From: Seonamhaeicola sediminis
Lineage (GTDB): Bacteria; Bacteroidota; Bacteroidia; Flavobacteriales; Flavobacteriaceae
NCBI RefSeq assembly: GCF_004358095.2
Contig: NZ_SMZJ02000004.1
Coordinates: 314 to 64,313, forward strand
Direction: 5' to 3'
DNA: 64,000 nucleotides
Of this stretch, positions 10,413 through 56,185 are shown in pieces. A program made the position numbers and the translations under genes. Numbering within the stretch: position 1 is the stretch's first letter; every line of letters starts with the position of its first letter. A model generated the notes under the pieces. The model did not search any database. It was not told the DNA's origin and saw only the letters and a list, made by a program, of their open reading frames with translations.

Positions 10413-10446
10413 AAAAAAAGCCTTCAAAATTTTTGAAGGCTTTTTA
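10413..10446 (-). terminator. Terminator of the HU gene
   Basis: GCCTTCA at 10420-10426 pairs with TGAAGGC at 10434-10440, extended by A-T pairs, with a U-tract on the minus strand. The T-run on the plus side could also make it work in that direction. Confidence 0.88.
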
Positions 10447-10465
10447 AAGTATATTGAGTAACTAA

Positions 10466-10738
10466 TTAGTTAACTGCACTTGATAAATCTGCACCAGCTT
10501 TAAACTTAACAACGTTTTTAGCTTTGATTTTGATTGTCTCACCAGTTTGAGGATTTCTTCCTTCTCTAGCAGCTCTTTTAGAAACTGACCAAGAACCAAA
10601 TCCTACTAAAGAAACGCGGTTACCTTTTTGTAAAGCGCCTTCAATTTCAATAATTGCACACTCTAAAGCTTTTTTAGCAGCTGCTTTAGTGATTCCTGCA
10701 TGTTCTGCCATTGCATCGATTAAATCTGTTTTGTTCAT
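10466..10738 (-). CDS. HU family DNA-binding protein
   Basis: The 90-residue nucleoid protein has the standard length and motifs. MNKTDLIDAMAEHAGITKAA forms the helical N-terminus, VSLVGFGSWSV the core strand, and the DNA-binding arm includes REGRNPQTGETIKI with the minor-groove-intercalating Pro. KNVVKFKAGADLSSAVN closes the fold. It bends and compacts DNA as a homo- or heterodimer. It has its own consensus promoter and terminator, fitting an abundant monocistronic transcript. Confidence 0.97.
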   Translation of the reverse strand: MNKTDLIDAMAEHAGITKAAAKKALECAIIEIEGALQKGNRVSLVGFGSWSVSKRAAREGRNPQTGETIKIKAKNVVKFKAGADLSSAVN

Positions 10739-51031: not shown

Positions 51032-54000
51032 TTATTTCTTTATCACTCTAACATTCATTTCTTCTATCTTTTTGTCTGATAGTGGAGATGGTGCTCCAAA
51101 CAATAAATCTTCACTGGTTCCTGTTTTCGGGAATGCCATAACTTCTCTAATGGAGGCTTTCTTTTCAAGAATCATCATTAAACGGTCTACACCCCAAGCA
51201 ATACCTCCATGTGGTGGTGCTCCATAATGGAAAGCTTTGTACATAGTTCCTACACTCTTCATCATATCTTCTTTGTTGTATCCCATATTTTTGTAAGTGG
51301 CTTCCAGAATTTCAGGCTTGTGCGCACGCACAGAGCCGCCTCCAATTTCGTAACCATTCAATATTAAGTCATATTGTTGTGCAATAATAGCACCAATATC
51401 ACCCTCTTTACCATTTAGGTGTTTTTCAATGTCATAGGTAGCTGGCATTGAGAATGGGTTGTGAGTGAATGTCCAATTACCTTCATCGGTTTTTTCAAAC
51501 ATAGGAAAATCAATAACCCAGGCAGGTCTTAATTCTTTAGGGTTTATCAACCTTAGCATCTTGCCCATTTCTTGCCTTACAGCATCCAAGGCTTTATTAG
51601 CGGTAGTATAATCAGCAGCAGAAAAGAACACAATGTCACCAACTTGGGCATGGGTTGCTTTAATAATGTTAACAGCTATGTCTTCTCCCAAGAATTTAAT
51701 GATGGGCGATTGTAAATCATTTTCGTTAACAATAATGTAAGCTAATCCACCCAAGCCATGCTCTTGAGCAATAGCGGTTAACTTTTCTATTTGTCCTTTA
51801 GACATACGTTGCTTGCCTTGTTCTTTTGCAGAAACTTTAATACATTTTACGATACCTCCTTCGTTAATAGGTTTGCTGAATACTTGAAATGTAGTATCTT
51901 TTACAATCTTAGTGATGTCTTGCATTTCTAAACCAAAACGAAGGTCTGGTCTGTCACAGCCGTATTTATCCATGGCCTCTTTATAGGTTAAAACCTCAAA
52001 AGGTTTTAAAATCCATTTTTTATCATATACTTTTTCAACTATTTCATTGAACATGTTTGTGTTCAAGTCCATAATTTGTTGCATACTAACATAAGCCATT
52101 TCAATATCTAACTGGGTAAATTCTGGTTGGCGATCACCTCTAGAGTCCTCGTCTCTAAAACAACGGGCTATCTGAAAATATTTTTCATAGCCACTTACCA
52201 TCAGCATCTGTTTAAACTGTTGGGGTGCCTGTGGCAAGGTGTAAAATGAACCAGCCTCTTTTCTTGTAGGAACAATAAATTCACGAGCACCTTCATCGGT
52301 TCCTGCACTCAAAATAGGTGTTTCTATTTCAAGGAAATTTTGTTGGTCTAATATGTCGCGCATTAGTTTAATAACCTTATGTCTATTTCTAATTACGCGA
52401 TGTACATCGGCATTTCTATGGTCTAAAAACTTATATTGAAAACGGGTTGTTTCGTTAGTTTTAGTGGCACGTTTTATTTCAAAAGGCAAAGTTCTGGAAA
52501 GGTTCAGAATTTCTAATTCCGAGGTTTCCATCTCAATGGTTCCTGTTCTTAAACTTGGGTTGAAATCATCTTCATGACGTCTCACAATATCACCAGTTAC
52601 CATGATGACAGATTCAGGTTTCAATTTTACCAATTCATCCAAGTTAGGGAATGATTCTCTACTTAGGCGTACTTGGAAAATCTCATTACTAGAATCTCGT
52701 AAATCAATAAATATCAATTCACCATGATCACGCACACTGGAAACCCAACCTGCTAAGGTCACCTTTTCAGAAATAGAGGCTTCAGAGAGGTCTGTAGCTA
52801 CGTGTGTTCTATATTCATCTTTTATAACCATGGGTATTTCTGGCAATACCTCTTCTTGTTGTTTAGCTATTGGTTGTTCGTTATTGGTTGTTGCTACTTT
52901 TTTATTGCGGTTTTCGGTCTCTGGTTTGCTGTCATTTTTAGCTGATAAAGCATTTAAAATACCTTCGCGAATCACTTTTCCAGAAGCTCCTTTGCCTATT
53001 ATGCCAATAACTTTTCCAACTAAAATACCAGCTTTACCTTGGTTTCCAGTTTTAATATCGTTAGCAATAGCCTCATTGTCATTAATGACTTTGGCAATGG
53101 CATTGTCTATTTTTTCTTTTGAAATGGTATTATTTTCAAAGTACTTGTTGTAGTCAAAAGTTCTATCTTTTAGATAAGAAGTAATAGCATTTTGAACTAA
53201 AACTGAGGTTATTTTTTCCTCTTTAAATAATTTGAAAATTTCAATAAGATGTTCTATTCTATATATATCAGTGTAGTCATCAGCGCCAATATTGTTTACA
53301 AGTGTTTTAGCAACAAACGAGGGGTCGTTAAGCTCTTTATTTATTGTCATAAACGTTTTAGAACGCAGCGCATCGGCAGTAAAAAATTTAGCATCTTGAG
53401 GTAACACACCACCTCTTATTAAAATACGCTCTACCGCATAAGGTAATGAGCTAATATCAACATCAATAGATTCTACAACGTTTTTGATGTTTACAAACGG
53501 TAAATCAGGTTCAGAGATGAAACGGTAATCGGCTTCAAACTCCTTTTTTCGCATGGTTTTGGTTTGCTTTAAGTCAGCATCAAAAAGCACTGTGGTTTGA
53601 TCTGGTCTAAACTCTTTATGCTCTATATAGTAGTTTAGTTGTTTTTCAACTTCTTCCTTTAGGGCTTCGGTCATAAACTTAAACGAGTTAAGGTTTTTAA
53701 TCTCAGTTCTTGGGTTTAAGTTATAGCTACGTTTTTTTCGAAGCGACACCGATACATCCGATTTAAACTCACCTTTTTCAAGGTTGGCTTCTGATATTTT
53801 TAAGTTCTGTACAATGCGTTGTAAGTATTGGGCATAGGTTGAAGCATCTTCGATATGATGGATACAAGGCTCTGTAACAATTTCAATAAGTGGCACACCT
53901 GCTTTATTGAAATCTACCAACGAAACTGTTTTTTCGTGCATTAATTTAGCAGCATCTTCTTCAATATGAACCTGAGTTAAATTTACAGTAAACTCAGAGC

Positions 54001-54373
54001 CATCATTTCTAAAGCAAGAAACTTGCCCATCTGGAATAATTGGATTATGAAACTGTGTTATCTGTATATTTTTTGGGTTGTCTGGGTACTCATAATGTTT
54101 TCTGTCCCATGAAATCACGTCATTACTAAAGGTTGATTTCACCGCTTTTCCAAAATAAATGGCTTTGGTGATAGCTTCTTTATTAACAGCAGGTAAAACC
54201 CCCATTTGCCCGGTACAAACAGAGCAAATGTTCTCATTTGGGGTTTCAATCTCTTGGTTAGGACAAGAACAGAATAACTTAGTTTTTGTGTTCAATCGGA
54301 TATGAGTTTCCAACCCAATAACCAATTCTAATTCGTAGGCTTTAAGCGTTTCGTTTAATTGCTCTAAATCCAT
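51032..54373 (-). CDS. gatB-aspS: Fused GatB amidotransferase subunit - aspartyl-tRNA synthetase
   Basis: One uninterrupted 1113-residue frame joins two whole enzymes. Residues 1-477 are GatB: LVIGLETHIRL, zinc Cys 35, 37, 50 and 53 (CSC and CSVC), HIEEDAAKLMHE, DFNKAGVPLIEIVTEP, and the YqeY-like tail ending GKASGKVIREGILNAL-like (KGASGKVIREGILNALSA). A Lys/Gln/Glu/Asn-rich linker covers 478-519. Residues 520-1113 are a bacterial AspRS with an OB anticodon domain (VTLAGWVSSVRDHGELIFI), motif 2 FRDEDSRGDRQPEF (739-752) and motif 3 GGIAWGVDRL (1056-1065). His550 matches the position where His marks non-discriminating AspRS of Pseudomonas. The gene overlaps gatA by TAATG. The predicted job is making Asn-tRNA-Asn via Asp-tRNA-Asn; separate expression of the halves is unlikely. 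Confidence 0.96.
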   Translation of the reverse strand: MDLEQLNETLKAYELELVIGLETHIRLNTKTKLFCSCPNQEIETPNENICSVCTGQMGVLPAVNKEAITKAIYFGKAVKSTFSNDVISWDRKHYEYPDNPKNIQITQFHNPIIPDGQVSCFRNDGSEFTVNLTQVHIEEDAAKLMHEKTVSLVDFNKAGVPLIEIVTEPCIHHIEDASTYAQYLQRIVQNLKISEANLEKGEFKSDVSVSLRKKRSYNLNPRTEIKNLNSFKFMTEALKEEVEKQLNYYIEHKEFRPDQTTVLFDADLKQTKTMRKKEFEADYRFISEPDLPFVNIKNVVESIDVDISSLPYAVERILIRGGVLPQDAKFFTADALRSKTFMTINKELNDPSFVAKTLVNNIGADDYTDIYRIEHLIEIFKLFKEEKITSVLVQNAITSYLKDRTFDYNKYFENNTISKEKIDNAIAKVINDNEAIANDIKTGNQGKAGILVGKVIGIIGKGASGKVIREGILNALSAKNDSKPETENRNKKVATTNNEQPIAKQQEEVLPEIPMVIKDEYRTHVATDLSEASISEKVTLAGWVSSVRDHGELIFIDLRDSSNEIFQVRLSRESFPNLDELVKLKPESVIMVTGDIVRRHEDDFNPSLRTGTIEMETSELEILNLSRTLPFEIKRATKTNETTRFQYKFLDHRNADVHRVIRNRHKVIKLMRDILDQQNFLEIETPILSAGTDEGAREFIVPTRKEAGSFYTLPQAPQQFKQMLMVSGYEKYFQIARCFRDEDSRGDRQPEFTQLDIEMAYVSMQQIMDLNTNMFNEIVEKVYDKKWILKPFEVLTYKEAMDKYGCDRPDLRFGLEMQDITKIVKDTTFQVFSKPINEGGIVKCIKVSAKEQGKQRMSKGQIEKLTAIAQEHGLGGLAYIIVNENDLQSPIIKFLGEDIAVNIIKATHAQVGDIVFFSAADYTTANKALDAVRQEMGKMLRLINPKELRPAWVIDFPMFEKTDEGNWTFTHNPFSMPATYDIEKHLNGKEGDIGAIIAQQYDLILNGYEIGGGSVRAHKPEILEATYKNMGYNKEDMMKSVGTMYKAFHYGAPPHGGIAWGVDRLMMILEKKASIREVMAFPKTGTSEDLLFGAPSPLSDKKIEEMNVRVIKK

Positions 54374-55776
54374 TATATCGTATCTTTTAAGAAGTTAGCA
54401 AACTTCAAAACAAGTTCGTCATTGTCTTTTGCGGCTGTTATCTGTAAGCCTGTTTCGGTGCCTTGAGGCACGGTTAAAGTTGGTAATTGTCCCAAACTAA
54501 ACCCAACAGTGTAAGCATCACTTAAATACATAGCCAATGGGTCTTTTAAACTATCGCCAATTTTTGGTGGCGTGCTTGGTGTTACTGGAGAAATAATCAC
54601 GTCAACTTCGTTAAAATCGTTTTCGAAATTCTGTGAAATTTGATCTCTTAGAGCAAGTCCTTTTAAGTAAATTTCATCACTAAATCCTTGCGATAATACT
54701 TGATTACCACCAACTATACGACGTTTTGTTTCTTCTGAAAAATTTTCAGAGCGTGTAATTGAATAACTGTCTTTTAAGTTTTCACCTTCTATTCTATTAC
54801 CATAGTTAGTACCATCTAAACGAGATAGGTTTGACGCGGTTTCGGCCATTGCCAAGGTATAGTAAGTTGAGACCAAAGTATCCGATTTAAAGAAATCTAA
54901 TTCTCTTACTTTGATGCCTTTAGCTTTAATTTTTACGACAGCAGAAAGGAAATCACTTTTTATCTTAGGGTCTATGGCTTCGCTTTCAACAAAATTTTTA
55001 AAATAACCAACAGACTTTATAGAATTATTTGGTGAGATTGATTCTTCAGTAATATTTTGTGAAGCATACGTGGTTTGGTCTTTTGTGTCCTTACCACTTA
55101 TAACATTCAATACAATTCTAATATCTTCAATAGATTTAGCAATAGGACCAACACAATCTGTTGATGACGCGTAGGCCATTAAGCCATATCTTGAAATACG
55201 CCCATAGGTGGGTTTCAAGCCATAAATACCATTATAACCTGCAGGTTGACGAATAGAACCTCCAGTATCTCCACCAATTGAAAATACCGTAAAGTCTTTG
55301 GCAACATTCACGGCAGACCCCCCACTAGAACCACCAGCAACTAATTCTGGGTTTTTGGCATTTTTTACAGCACCAAAAATGGTATTCTCACTAGAAGAAC
55401 CGTGTCCAAAACTATCACAGTTTTCTTTTACAATAGGAATAGCACCAGCATCTAAAAGTTTCTGAATAGCCGTTGCTGTGTAGGCCGATTTGTAATTTTT
55501 TAATAAATCTGAACTGGCTGTGGTATAGGTGCCCTCTACCATATAAACATCTTTGATACCAAAGGGGATACCCTCAAGTAAACCAATTGCTTCACCGTTT
55601 GTAATTTTTTCGTCAACTTTAGAAGCTAATGCTAAGGCATAGTCTTCTAAAAGACTATTAACAGTGTTATGAGTATTGGATTTTAATAAGTTTAGTTTTT
55701 CTTTTACTAGGGCTAAACAAGAAATTTCTTTGTTTACTAGTTTATGGTGTATCGATTTTATTTGAGATTCCATCAT
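54373..55776 (-). CDS. gatA: Asp/Glu-tRNA amidotransferase subunit A
   Basis: The 467-residue amidase subunit makes ammonia from glutamine for GatB. The amidase signature is intact: Lys75 in PFGIKDVYM, cis-Ser150 in AGGSSGGSAVNVA and nucleophile Ser174 in GGDTGGSIRQPAGYNG. GLKPTYGRISRYGLMAYASS and the C-terminal LTVPQGTETGLQI follow. The segment before the GGSSGG loop (KNAKNPELVAGGSS) is a few residues shorter than in Firmicutes GatA. TAATG overlaps at both ends (with gatC and gatB-aspS) imply translational coupling and fixed stoichiometry. Confidence 0.96.
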   Translation of the reverse strand: MMESQIKSIHHKLVNKEISCLALVKEKLNLLKSNTHNTVNSLLEDYALALASKVDEKITNGEAIGLLEGIPFGIKDVYMVEGTYTTASSDLLKNYKSAYTATAIQKLLDAGAIPIVKENCDSFGHGSSSENTIFGAVKNAKNPELVAGGSSGGSAVNVAKDFTVFSIGGDTGGSIRQPAGYNGIYGLKPTYGRISRYGLMAYASSTDCVGPIAKSIEDIRIVLNVISGKDTKDQTTYASQNITEESISPNNSIKSVGYFKNFVESEAIDPKIKSDFLSAVVKIKAKGIKVRELDFFKSDTLVSTYYTLAMAETASNLSRLDGTNYGNRIEGENLKDSYSITRSENFSEETKRRIVGGNQVLSQGFSDEIYLKGLALRDQISQNFENDFNEVDVIISPVTPSTPPKIGDSLKDPLAMYLSDAYTVGFSLGQLPTLTVPQGTETGLQITAAKDNDELVLKFANFLKDTI

Positions 55777-56045
55777 TATTCTTCAATCACTTTAGAAACA
55801 ACTAAGTACCCTTTTTTCTCTTTAGGGAAATTTTCTTTGATAATCTGCTTTTCGGTTGCCGAACTTTCAATAATAACATCCTCTCTTAAATCATCAATTG
55901 ATACCGCATTATTATGATTGCTGTTAAAAGTACCATCATTTGAAGTGTGTGCATTTTTAATCACATCAAATAGTTTGCTCACCGCTTCTGAGGGTTTTGC
56001 ACCTTTAATACTCGACAGGATGTCGACGGTCATAATTTTACTCAT
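55776..56045 (-). CDS. gatC: Asp/Glu-tRNA amidotransferase subunit C, divergent N-terminus
   Basis: The 89-residue product is recognisable as GatC from its C-terminal half: VSIDDLREDVIIESSATEKQ, then FPKEKKGYLVVSKVIEE, the belt that wraps GatA. The N-terminal half (MTVDILSSIKGAKPSEAVSK) lacks the usual LARLEL helix pattern, so the GatB contact may differ, perhaps in keeping with the AspRS fusion. It is the first structural gene of the operon, placed 19 bases after the attenuator hairpin. The ATG at 56045 is preceded by an A-rich stretch and no Shine-Dalgarno. A second in-frame ATG lies 4 codons in. Confidence 0.85.
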   Translation of the reverse strand: MSKIMTVDILSSIKGAKPSEAVSKLFDVIKNAHTSNDGTFNSNHNNAVSIDDLREDVIIESSATEKQIIKENFPKEKKGYLVVSKVIEE

Positions 56046-56063: not shown

Positions 56064-56094
56064 AAAAAAAGCCTTCCGTTTTTGGAAGGCTTTT
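56064..56094 (-). terminator. Attenuator terminator hairpin before gatC
   Basis: On the minus strand AAAAGCCTTCC (56094-56084) pairs with GGAAGGCTTTT (56077-56067) around a 6-base loop. A run of seven Us (56070-56064) follows. No complete gene ends upstream on this strand within 400 bp, so it is a leader terminator and not the end of another operon. Confidence 0.92.
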
Positions 56095-56122
56095 AATATT
56101 TTTGAACAATAACCTTCCTGTC

Positions 56123-56167
56123 CTAAAATATAGGATTATTGAAATTATTATTGTTGTTGTTTCTCAT
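56123..56167 (-). CDS. Asn-rich leader peptide of the gat operon (14 residues)
   Basis: ATG at 56167-56165 opens a 14-codon frame, MRNNNNNNFNNPIF, ending in TAG at 56125-56123. Eight of 14 residues are Asn, six of them consecutive (AAC x3, AAT x3). It lies 11 bases after a TATCTTTG element and is preceded by ACAAA, usual for starts in this phylum. The peptide itself is expected to be unimportant. Its translation rate senses charged tRNA-Asn, the very product of the downstream GatCAB-AspRS enzymes. Confidence 0.85.
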   Translation of the reverse strand: MRNNNNNNFNNPIF

Positions 56168-56177
56168 TTTGTCACGC

Positions 56178-56185
56178 CAAAGATA
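56178..56185 (-). promoter_or_regulatory. -7 element of the gat leader promoter
   Basis: TATCTTTG on the minus strand matches TANNTTTG and puts the transcript start near 56174, about 7 bases before the leader ATG. The -33 part is weak (TTTA at 56205-56202, spacing 16). Confidence 0.65.

Follow-up and report, generated by a model that had tools for sequence, protein, structure and literature searches.

How might a cell that makes an amino acid on its own tRNA sense whether it has made enough? This question is raised by the region directly upstream of gatC in Seonamhaeicola sediminis (Flavobacteriaceae), which lies within a stretch of 64,000 nucleotides that we analyse as a whole and refer to here as the window. 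In the attenuators of the trp, his, leu, ilv and phe operons, a short reading frame rich in codons for the product is combined with overlapping hairpins and a U-run terminator before the first gene. Upstream of gatC we find this combination with Asn codons in the frame, and the genes that follow encode a tRNA-dependent amidotransferase (GatCAB) with an aspartyl-tRNA synthetase (AspRS) fused to one of its subunits. Judged from sequence comparison and RNA folding, the leader is very probably a ribosome-mediated attenuator of the trp/his type that reads Asn codons.

Anatomy of the leader

The features of the leader and of the operon are collected in Table 1. An earlier reading of the window alone (the original prediction) had described a promoter box, a frame of 14 codons, eight of them for Asn, and a terminator with seven Us just before gatC, and all of these are found in the positions given there: the frame MRNNNNNNFNNPIF opens with ATG at 56167, contains eight Asn codons and closes with TAG at 56125-56123, while the terminator (GCCUUCC-AAAAAC-GGAAGGC-U7) spans 56090-56064, with its arms at 56090-56084 and 56077-56071 and seven T at 56070-56064. 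The gatC start, at 56045, is downstream of it. Segment 2, the stretch that can pair with either of two partners, was correctly placed at GGAAGG (56118-56113) and turns out to be longer than was thought (GGAAGGUUAUUGUU, 56118-56105); its second half (AACAAUAA) complements the Asn codons themselves.

Table 1. Positions of the leader elements and operon genes in the window
Feature	Position	Strand	Basis
Sigma-A type -7 box TATCTTTG (TAnnTTTG)	56178-56185	minus	Motif match; seen in 58/58 leader loci
Leader peptide frame MRNNNNNNFNNPIF and stop	56123-56167	minus	14 codons, open in 58/58 leader loci
Segment 1, complementary to segment 2: Asn codons AACAAUAAU with UUUC	56141-56155	minus	Folding, alignment
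Small hairpin UCCUA / UAGGA, including the Pro codon and leader stop codon	56121-56135	minus	99.7% of cells paired
Segment 2 GGAAGGUUAUUGUU, partner of segment 1 or segment 3	56105-56118	minus	Folding, alignment
Segment 3 AAAAGCCUUCC: 3' arm of the antiterminator or 5' arm of the terminator	56084-56094	minus	Alignment pairing
Segment 4 GGAAGGCUUUUUUU: terminator 3' arm and U run	56064-56077	minus	Alignment pairing
gatC, 89 aa, divergent, no NCBIfam match	55776-56045	minus	Named from operon position
gatA, 467 aa	54373-55776	minus	TIGR00132, 435.7 bits, below the cut-off of 481.1
gatB::aspS fusion, 1113 aa, GatB then bacterial-type AspRS	51032-54373	minus	Profile matches

The Asn run is not a matter of chance, since the 64 kb window has a single run of six consecutive Asn codons and 100 dinucleotide shuffles have none, and since the fold of the leader RNA (-29.5 kcal/mol, z = -4.72) is equalled in stability by none of 200 shuffles. 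A crude scan of the window for promoter, frame and terminator in succession, which accepted ATG frames with at least three equal residues in a run, returns this leader as its sole find.

Conservation across the family

We examine relatives in two samples. The first starts from a GatC scan of named genomes, in which the best 80 of 156 relatives were kept; together with five further distinct relatives and the window itself these give 86 distinct loci, a sample that leans to close relatives (L088, L089, L092, L093, L094, L097 and L098 were dropped as repeats of contigs already counted). The second is an even sample of 396 family genomes at least 95% complete, part of the larger family, of which 73 are GatB-positive. 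A leader with both alternative hairpins stands upstream of gatC in 58 of the 86 distinct loci, while 28 are without it; one of the 58, L080, was placed in the set by hand, its frame (FMNP) having missed the search expression. The even sample has the leader in 44 of its 73 genomes with GatB: in 37 of the 63 that are new and in 7 of the 10 shared with the 86-locus set. Wherever the hairpin is found among the leader loci the Asn frame is found with it, open and accompanied by both recognisable hairpins in 58 of 58, and this joint conservation supports the central proposal of the original prediction, a leader-peptide attenuator with Asn codons.

Over these 58 loci the frame is 14-17 codons long and always keeps its start codon (GTG in one), and TAnnTTTG is present in every case within 60 nt upstream, ending 10-23 nt before the start. 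In L069 a one-base insertion just 5' of the usual stop extends the frame to a later one. GGAAGG is exact in 51 loci and variant in 7, and the strict terminator pattern is found in 57, the exception being L077, where the U run is broken. Model R1 scores 107.3-129.5 bits in the 19 of 37 new leader loci that are non-identical to training rows, and 70.1-129.5 bits in all 42 leader-bearing sources when training rows are included. A strict leader pattern, run on 79 relatives, matches six genomes, once each and always at the gat operon; because it misses variants, absence was not counted from it. One weak R1 match elsewhere in the window (10413-10536) was set aside, since a terminator of ordinary appearance follows a reading frame there.

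Could the Asn run be conserved purely as RNA? The AAU repeats would then matter for their pairing with AUUAUUGUU, and the switch would answer to a protein or to the general speed of translation. The exact complementarity of AACAAUAA and UUAUUGUU is what such a reading expects, and so is the location of the conserved Phe and Pro codons in pairings. However, Asn is kept outside the long 1:2 helix as well, at codons F-6, F-5, F+1 and F+2, in 217 of 232 cells and with both AAT and AAC in use, and neither the permanently open frame nor the retained start codon and promoter box (allowing for the one GTG start and for L069, which runs on) would be called for by pairing alone. We judge it improbable that RNA structure by itself accounts for the run; a frame that is read as Asn codons is the preferred reading.

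The leaderless loci show that the attenuator is not essential, as 29 of the 73 fusion genomes do without it and use another upstream region. By eye, such loci often have a promoter-like box, CTTTCGTAATTTTG or similar, no more than about 60 nt from gatC; of 26 leaderless family loci in the even sample, 11 have the strict TAnnTTTG box within 190 nt. Model R1, run on 62 leaderless loci of which some share a genome, gives five matches up to E 1, the best at 32.5 bits and none directly upstream of gatC; the idea of a relic leader was therefore rejected for these 62 loci. The leaderless set includes all seven named Flavobacterium loci (L016, L021, L023, L024, L036, L046 and L075). Outside the family, no recognised leader is seen at eight gat loci of family f27, in three of which (L212, L217, L218) the gatC start is poorly placed. 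On a GatA tree of 84 loci, a quick tree with many weak branches, gains and losses of the attenuator add up to at least 13, and a single gain was discarded on that count. Mariniflexile sp. AS56 (L061), for instance, is without the attenuator while its tree sister L057 has it. The nearest GatA in the tree is that of S. aphaedonensis (92%).

Alternative pairings and folding of the proposed switch

In the 58-row alignment all three alternative pairings are conserved in register. The terminator is paired in 97.6% of cells, the antiterminator (2:3) in 98.0% and the 1:2 helix with the small hairpin in 96.6%, against at most 80.2%, 70.9% and 67.5%, respectively, when the arms are slid by 1-3 columns; the long 1:2 helix taken separately is paired in 95.5%. 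Compensating changes in these pairings, proposed at the outset as support for an attenuator, appear in some helices and are missing from others: there are five double changes in the terminator, all GC-to-AU and all at one pair, and three in the small hairpin, and there are none in the 2:3 helix or in the long 1:2 helix over the 58 rows. The 1:2 counts are barely above those of their shuffles. Covariation is weak because the leader sequences are so alike, and CCUUCC is invariant over the whole alignment, as expected for a segment 3 that must pair in two ways.

The small hairpin bears on another alternative, in which ribosome release or nascent-peptide arrest at the FNNP motif, instead of the level of charged tRNA-Asn, would set the switch. 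FNNP is indeed more conserved than the N-terminus of the leader peptide over the 58 loci, and a Pro near the stop could slow translation. Yet the F and P codons sit in RNA pairings that are able to explain their conservation, and the residues themselves are replaceable: S stands for F in 2 of 58 loci and for P in 3 of 58, and in the P-to-S loci the codon change is compensated 3' of the stop by a second change that restores the RNA pair. Arrest or release is, in our estimate, a very unlikely signal, and we continue with charged tRNA-Asn as the preferred one.

Folding of the leader with a ribosome in place distinguishes the states that an attenuator should have. The ribosome footprint, kept unpaired in these calculations, was set by us to end 14 nt beyond the first base of the codon chosen. 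While segment 4 is still to be transcribed, a ribosome on the Asn codons leaves segment 3 paired with upstream sequence in all 58 loci; in 56 of them the partner is the aligned segment-2 columns (L006 and L022 pair in a shifted position). With the ribosome at the stop codon, segment 3 is paired upstream, and with aligned segment 2, in 0 of 58. A ribosome-free transcript that reaches up to segment 3 has that segment paired upstream in 51 of the 58, so the energies do not show the 1:2 protector prevailing unaided. The expected contrast between stalled and stop states is thus borne out before segment 4 is made, and is lost in the full-length RNA: there the equilibrium fold is the terminator in 58, 56, 54 and 58 of 58 loci (no ribosome, two stall positions and stop, respectively). 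As a stalled ribosome hardly ever displaces the terminator as the equilibrium fold, antitermination must be kinetic. Textbook attenuators likewise switch kinetically.

This dominance of the terminator in nearly all states is also what a plain intrinsic terminator, or a constitutive attenuator that lowers gatCAB expression from an untranslated leader, would give, and the 29 of 73 fusion genomes with another upstream region fit that simpler picture. Under it, however, segment 2 and the Asn frame would both be superfluous, and the two are kept together in 58 loci; we give the plain terminator very little credence and retain the ribosome-mediated attenuator as the preferred reading.

The operon and its fused synthetase

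Downstream of the leader, gatC, gatA and gatB::aspS are joined by one-base overlaps. The order is conserved: among the best 80 of 156 relatives, gatA comes after gatC in 79 and gatB next in 78, and contig ends interrupt the remaining ones. The fusion protein of the window scores 392.6 bits with NF004012 (GatB, cut-off 338) and 717.9 bits with NF001750 (AspRS, cut-off 443), and GatB is fused to AspRS in all 73 GatB-positive family genomes, in open frames of 1112-1130 codons. The same fusion is found in all eight tested genomes of f27, another family of the class. In further families of the class (f26, f31 and f76; loci L141-L148) open frames of 649-692 codons match GatB_N at no more than 136-161 bits; by eye, the one that was read, L148, resembles archaeal-type GatE.

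Which tRNA does the fused AspRS charge? The His of the RD[H]G site matters for non-discriminating AspRS enzymes, and a Gly at residue 82 of Pseudomonas aeruginosa AspRS is a second marker of them. The anticodon-domain motif is RDHG in 10 of 10 fused AspRS and RDKG in 10 of 10 stand-alone AspRS, the former being shared with the Asp/Asn enzymes of P. aeruginosa (solved) and of mycobacteria (reference sequences). At the position of the second marker, alignments read by eye have Asp in the fused AspRS and Lys in the stand-alone one, and not Gly. The fused AspRS is predicted to be non-discriminating, charging Asp onto tRNA-Asn. The tRNA-Asn of the S. sediminis genome carries U1-A72, the pair that GatCAB recognises (PMC4206432).

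Exchange of the operon with AsnB

Across the even sample, the fused operon and canonical asparagine synthetase B (AsnB, called with a 554-residue query at E at most 1e-120) exclude each other. Canonical AsnB is present in 298 of the 396 genomes, divided as 0 of 73 GatB-positive against 298 of 323 others (Fisher p 1.7e-58, with kinship ignored). For fourteen of the 298 the match reaches no more than E 1e-147 to 1e-156, and these may represent a divergent type. A further 25 of the 396 have neither fused GatB nor canonical AsnB; G013, G029 and G039 among them have asnA. Five genera (g7, g70, g120, g139 and g169) contain genomes of both kinds, and the exclusion holds within them, so the exchange has happened more than once.

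Among 79 relatives, 13 are fusion genomes, and AsnRS is over its cut-off in all 13, the S. sediminis genome included, as is GlnRS. GatCAB is therefore not needed for Gln, and a role of the fused enzyme in making Gln-tRNA was rejected on this evidence. Outside the family, all 18 relatives with an unfused GatB are without a GlnRS over the cut-off, and the usual Gln role would apply there. As the S. sediminis genome also has a separate stand-alone AspRS next to its AsnRS and GlnRS, the suggestion that this organism depends on transamidation for its Asn-tRNA does not hold.

It may instead depend on the operon for asparagine itself, as canonical AsnB and asnA are both absent from its genome; one other AsnB-like gene remains. 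That gene scores 238.4 bits against an AsnB equivalog cut-off of 499 (the equivalog model was run on this gene alone). More widely, an AsnB-superfamily gene is over the TIGR01536 cut-off in 9 of the 13 fusion genomes, S. sediminis included, and asnA is found in one (G001). Four (G003, G023, G025 and G042) have neither an AsnB-family gene over the cut-off nor asnA, which leaves the gat operon as the only recognised Asn route in them. As a separate observation, the best match of the S. sediminis AsnB-superfamily gene (L101, 306-2135) is to the XrtA/PEP-CTERM amidotransferase family, at 357.4 bits with a cut-off of 816.9, and its product is possibly linked to polysaccharide rather than to Asn synthesis.

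Given the fusion in all 73 GatB-positive family genomes, the exclusion of canonical AsnB and the presence of AsnRS, GlnRS and a stand-alone AspRS, the operon reads best as one for asparagine biosynthesis and not as the sole route for charging tRNA-Asn.

A proposed mechanism

The leader and the operon of these marine flavobacteria can be joined in one scheme. Transcription would begin just 5' of the leader, and a ribosome would trail RNA polymerase into the frame with its eight Asn codons. With ample Asn-tRNA-Asn, the ribosome would reach the stop codon and cover GGAAGG; alternatively it would leave, and segment 2 would re-pair with the Asn codons. With segment 2 occupied in either way, segment 3 would fold with segment 4 and transcription would end before gatC. 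If Asn-tRNA-Asn is scarce, we infer that the ribosome stalls on the Asn codons and leaves segment 2 free to pair with segment 3 before segment 4 has been made, allowing readthrough into gatC-gatA-gatB::aspS. The fused AspRS would then load Asp on tRNA-Asn, GatCAB would amidate it, and Asn-tRNA-Asn, the product of these enzymes, would shut its own switch. Should channelling or EF-Tu withhold Asp-tRNA-Asn from the ribosome, completed amidation would be what the switch reads, and not just charging.

That transcription of a dedicated asparagine-biosynthesis operon is controlled here by a ribosome-mediated attenuator responding specifically to charged tRNA-Asn, we consider highly likely from the sequence comparisons. 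We also lean, with more modest confidence, towards the wider account in which the fused GatB-AspRS operon has been repeatedly exchanged with AsnB and bears, in more than half of its genomes, an Asn-codon attenuator of undescribed specificity that closes a loop on amidation. If the scheme is right, sensor and product are the same molecule, an amino acid made on its own tRNA. Across the family, AsnB and a fused GatCAB-AspRS have taken each other's place, and sister species of which one has the switch and the other lacks it offer a simple test bed.

Comparison with known systems

Leader-peptide attenuators are known for many amino acids, and this leader is like those of the trp/his/leu/ilv/phe type (Rfam Phe_leader, Thr_leader and His_leader) in general anatomy. 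The best Rfam match of the window region is Phe_leader (RF01859), at 36.6 bits, which is under the gathering score of 55 bits, and no Rfam family reaches gathering in the window region or in L002, L012, L057 and L099. Unlike Phe_leader-type attenuators, the present leader carries Asn codons, precedes tRNA-dependent amidation rather than a free-amino-acid pathway, and is hosted by Flavobacteriaceae. A T-box is the other familiar way of sensing a tRNA, and between 55900 and 56500 of the window there is none among 17 Rfam matches up to E 10. T-boxes bind the tRNA directly and test only whether its 3' end is free. Translation, if our scheme holds, could distinguish Asn-tRNA-Asn from Asp-tRNA-Asn, whereas a T-box would count the intermediate as charged.

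In the open-licence papers searched we found no description of an asparagine leader peptide, of a GatB-AspRS fusion or of its exchange with AsnB. The original prediction that no such attenuator had been described thus stands for the leader-peptide form and has to be given up for control of amidation by tRNA-Asn: a T-box controls tRNA-dependent amidation in Clostridium acetobutylicum (2012 work cited in PMC4206432). There, too, tRNA-dependent Asn synthesis is under tRNA control, with an additional GatCAB and extra AspRSs (PMC4206432); the sensor is a T-box, in contrast to the present locus, which has no T-box match and where the Asn-codon frame is the likely sensor. Within the family, clues to leader-peptide attenuation have been reported upstream of amino-acid operons of Flavobacterium psychrophilum, together with TAnnTTTG as the -7 box consensus (PMC9723704). 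Those proposals share both family and class of mechanism with this leader, and the main text of that paper contains neither 'asparagin' nor 'gatB' (PMC9723704).

Deinococcus radiodurans, Thermus thermophilus, Staphylococcus aureus and Bdellovibrio have dual Asn routes, and as here an AsnRS stands beside a GatCAB that is used, or proposed, for making Asn on tRNA (PMC4206432). The second AspRS of Deinococcus-Thermus is archaeal-type, whereas here it is bacterial-type and fused to GatB; the gain of an additional AspRS is called rare in the same source (PMC4206432). The AspRS-GatC fusion PRK12820 (NF009460) likewise joins AspRS to a GatCAB subunit, but to subunit C and not B, and the window protein scores 469.1 against the NF009460 cut-off of 1379. 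In holding AspRS and amidotransferase together the fusion is also like the transamidosome, where Asp-tRNA-Asn is handed on directly (PMC7373986); the transamidosome is a complex of separate proteins, whereas here GatB and AspRS form one chain, for which channelling is hypothetical.

Finally, a 2010 survey of attenuators, whose main text has no gatC, gatA, asparagin or Bacteroidetes, notes that a leader peptide on a given gene may give way to a T-box, and the reverse (PMC2965389). By analogy, an Asn leader on gatCAB would be another such exchange, and the leader described here is, on the comparisons above, a well-supported candidate for a new specificity of the classic mechanism, placed on an unusual operon.
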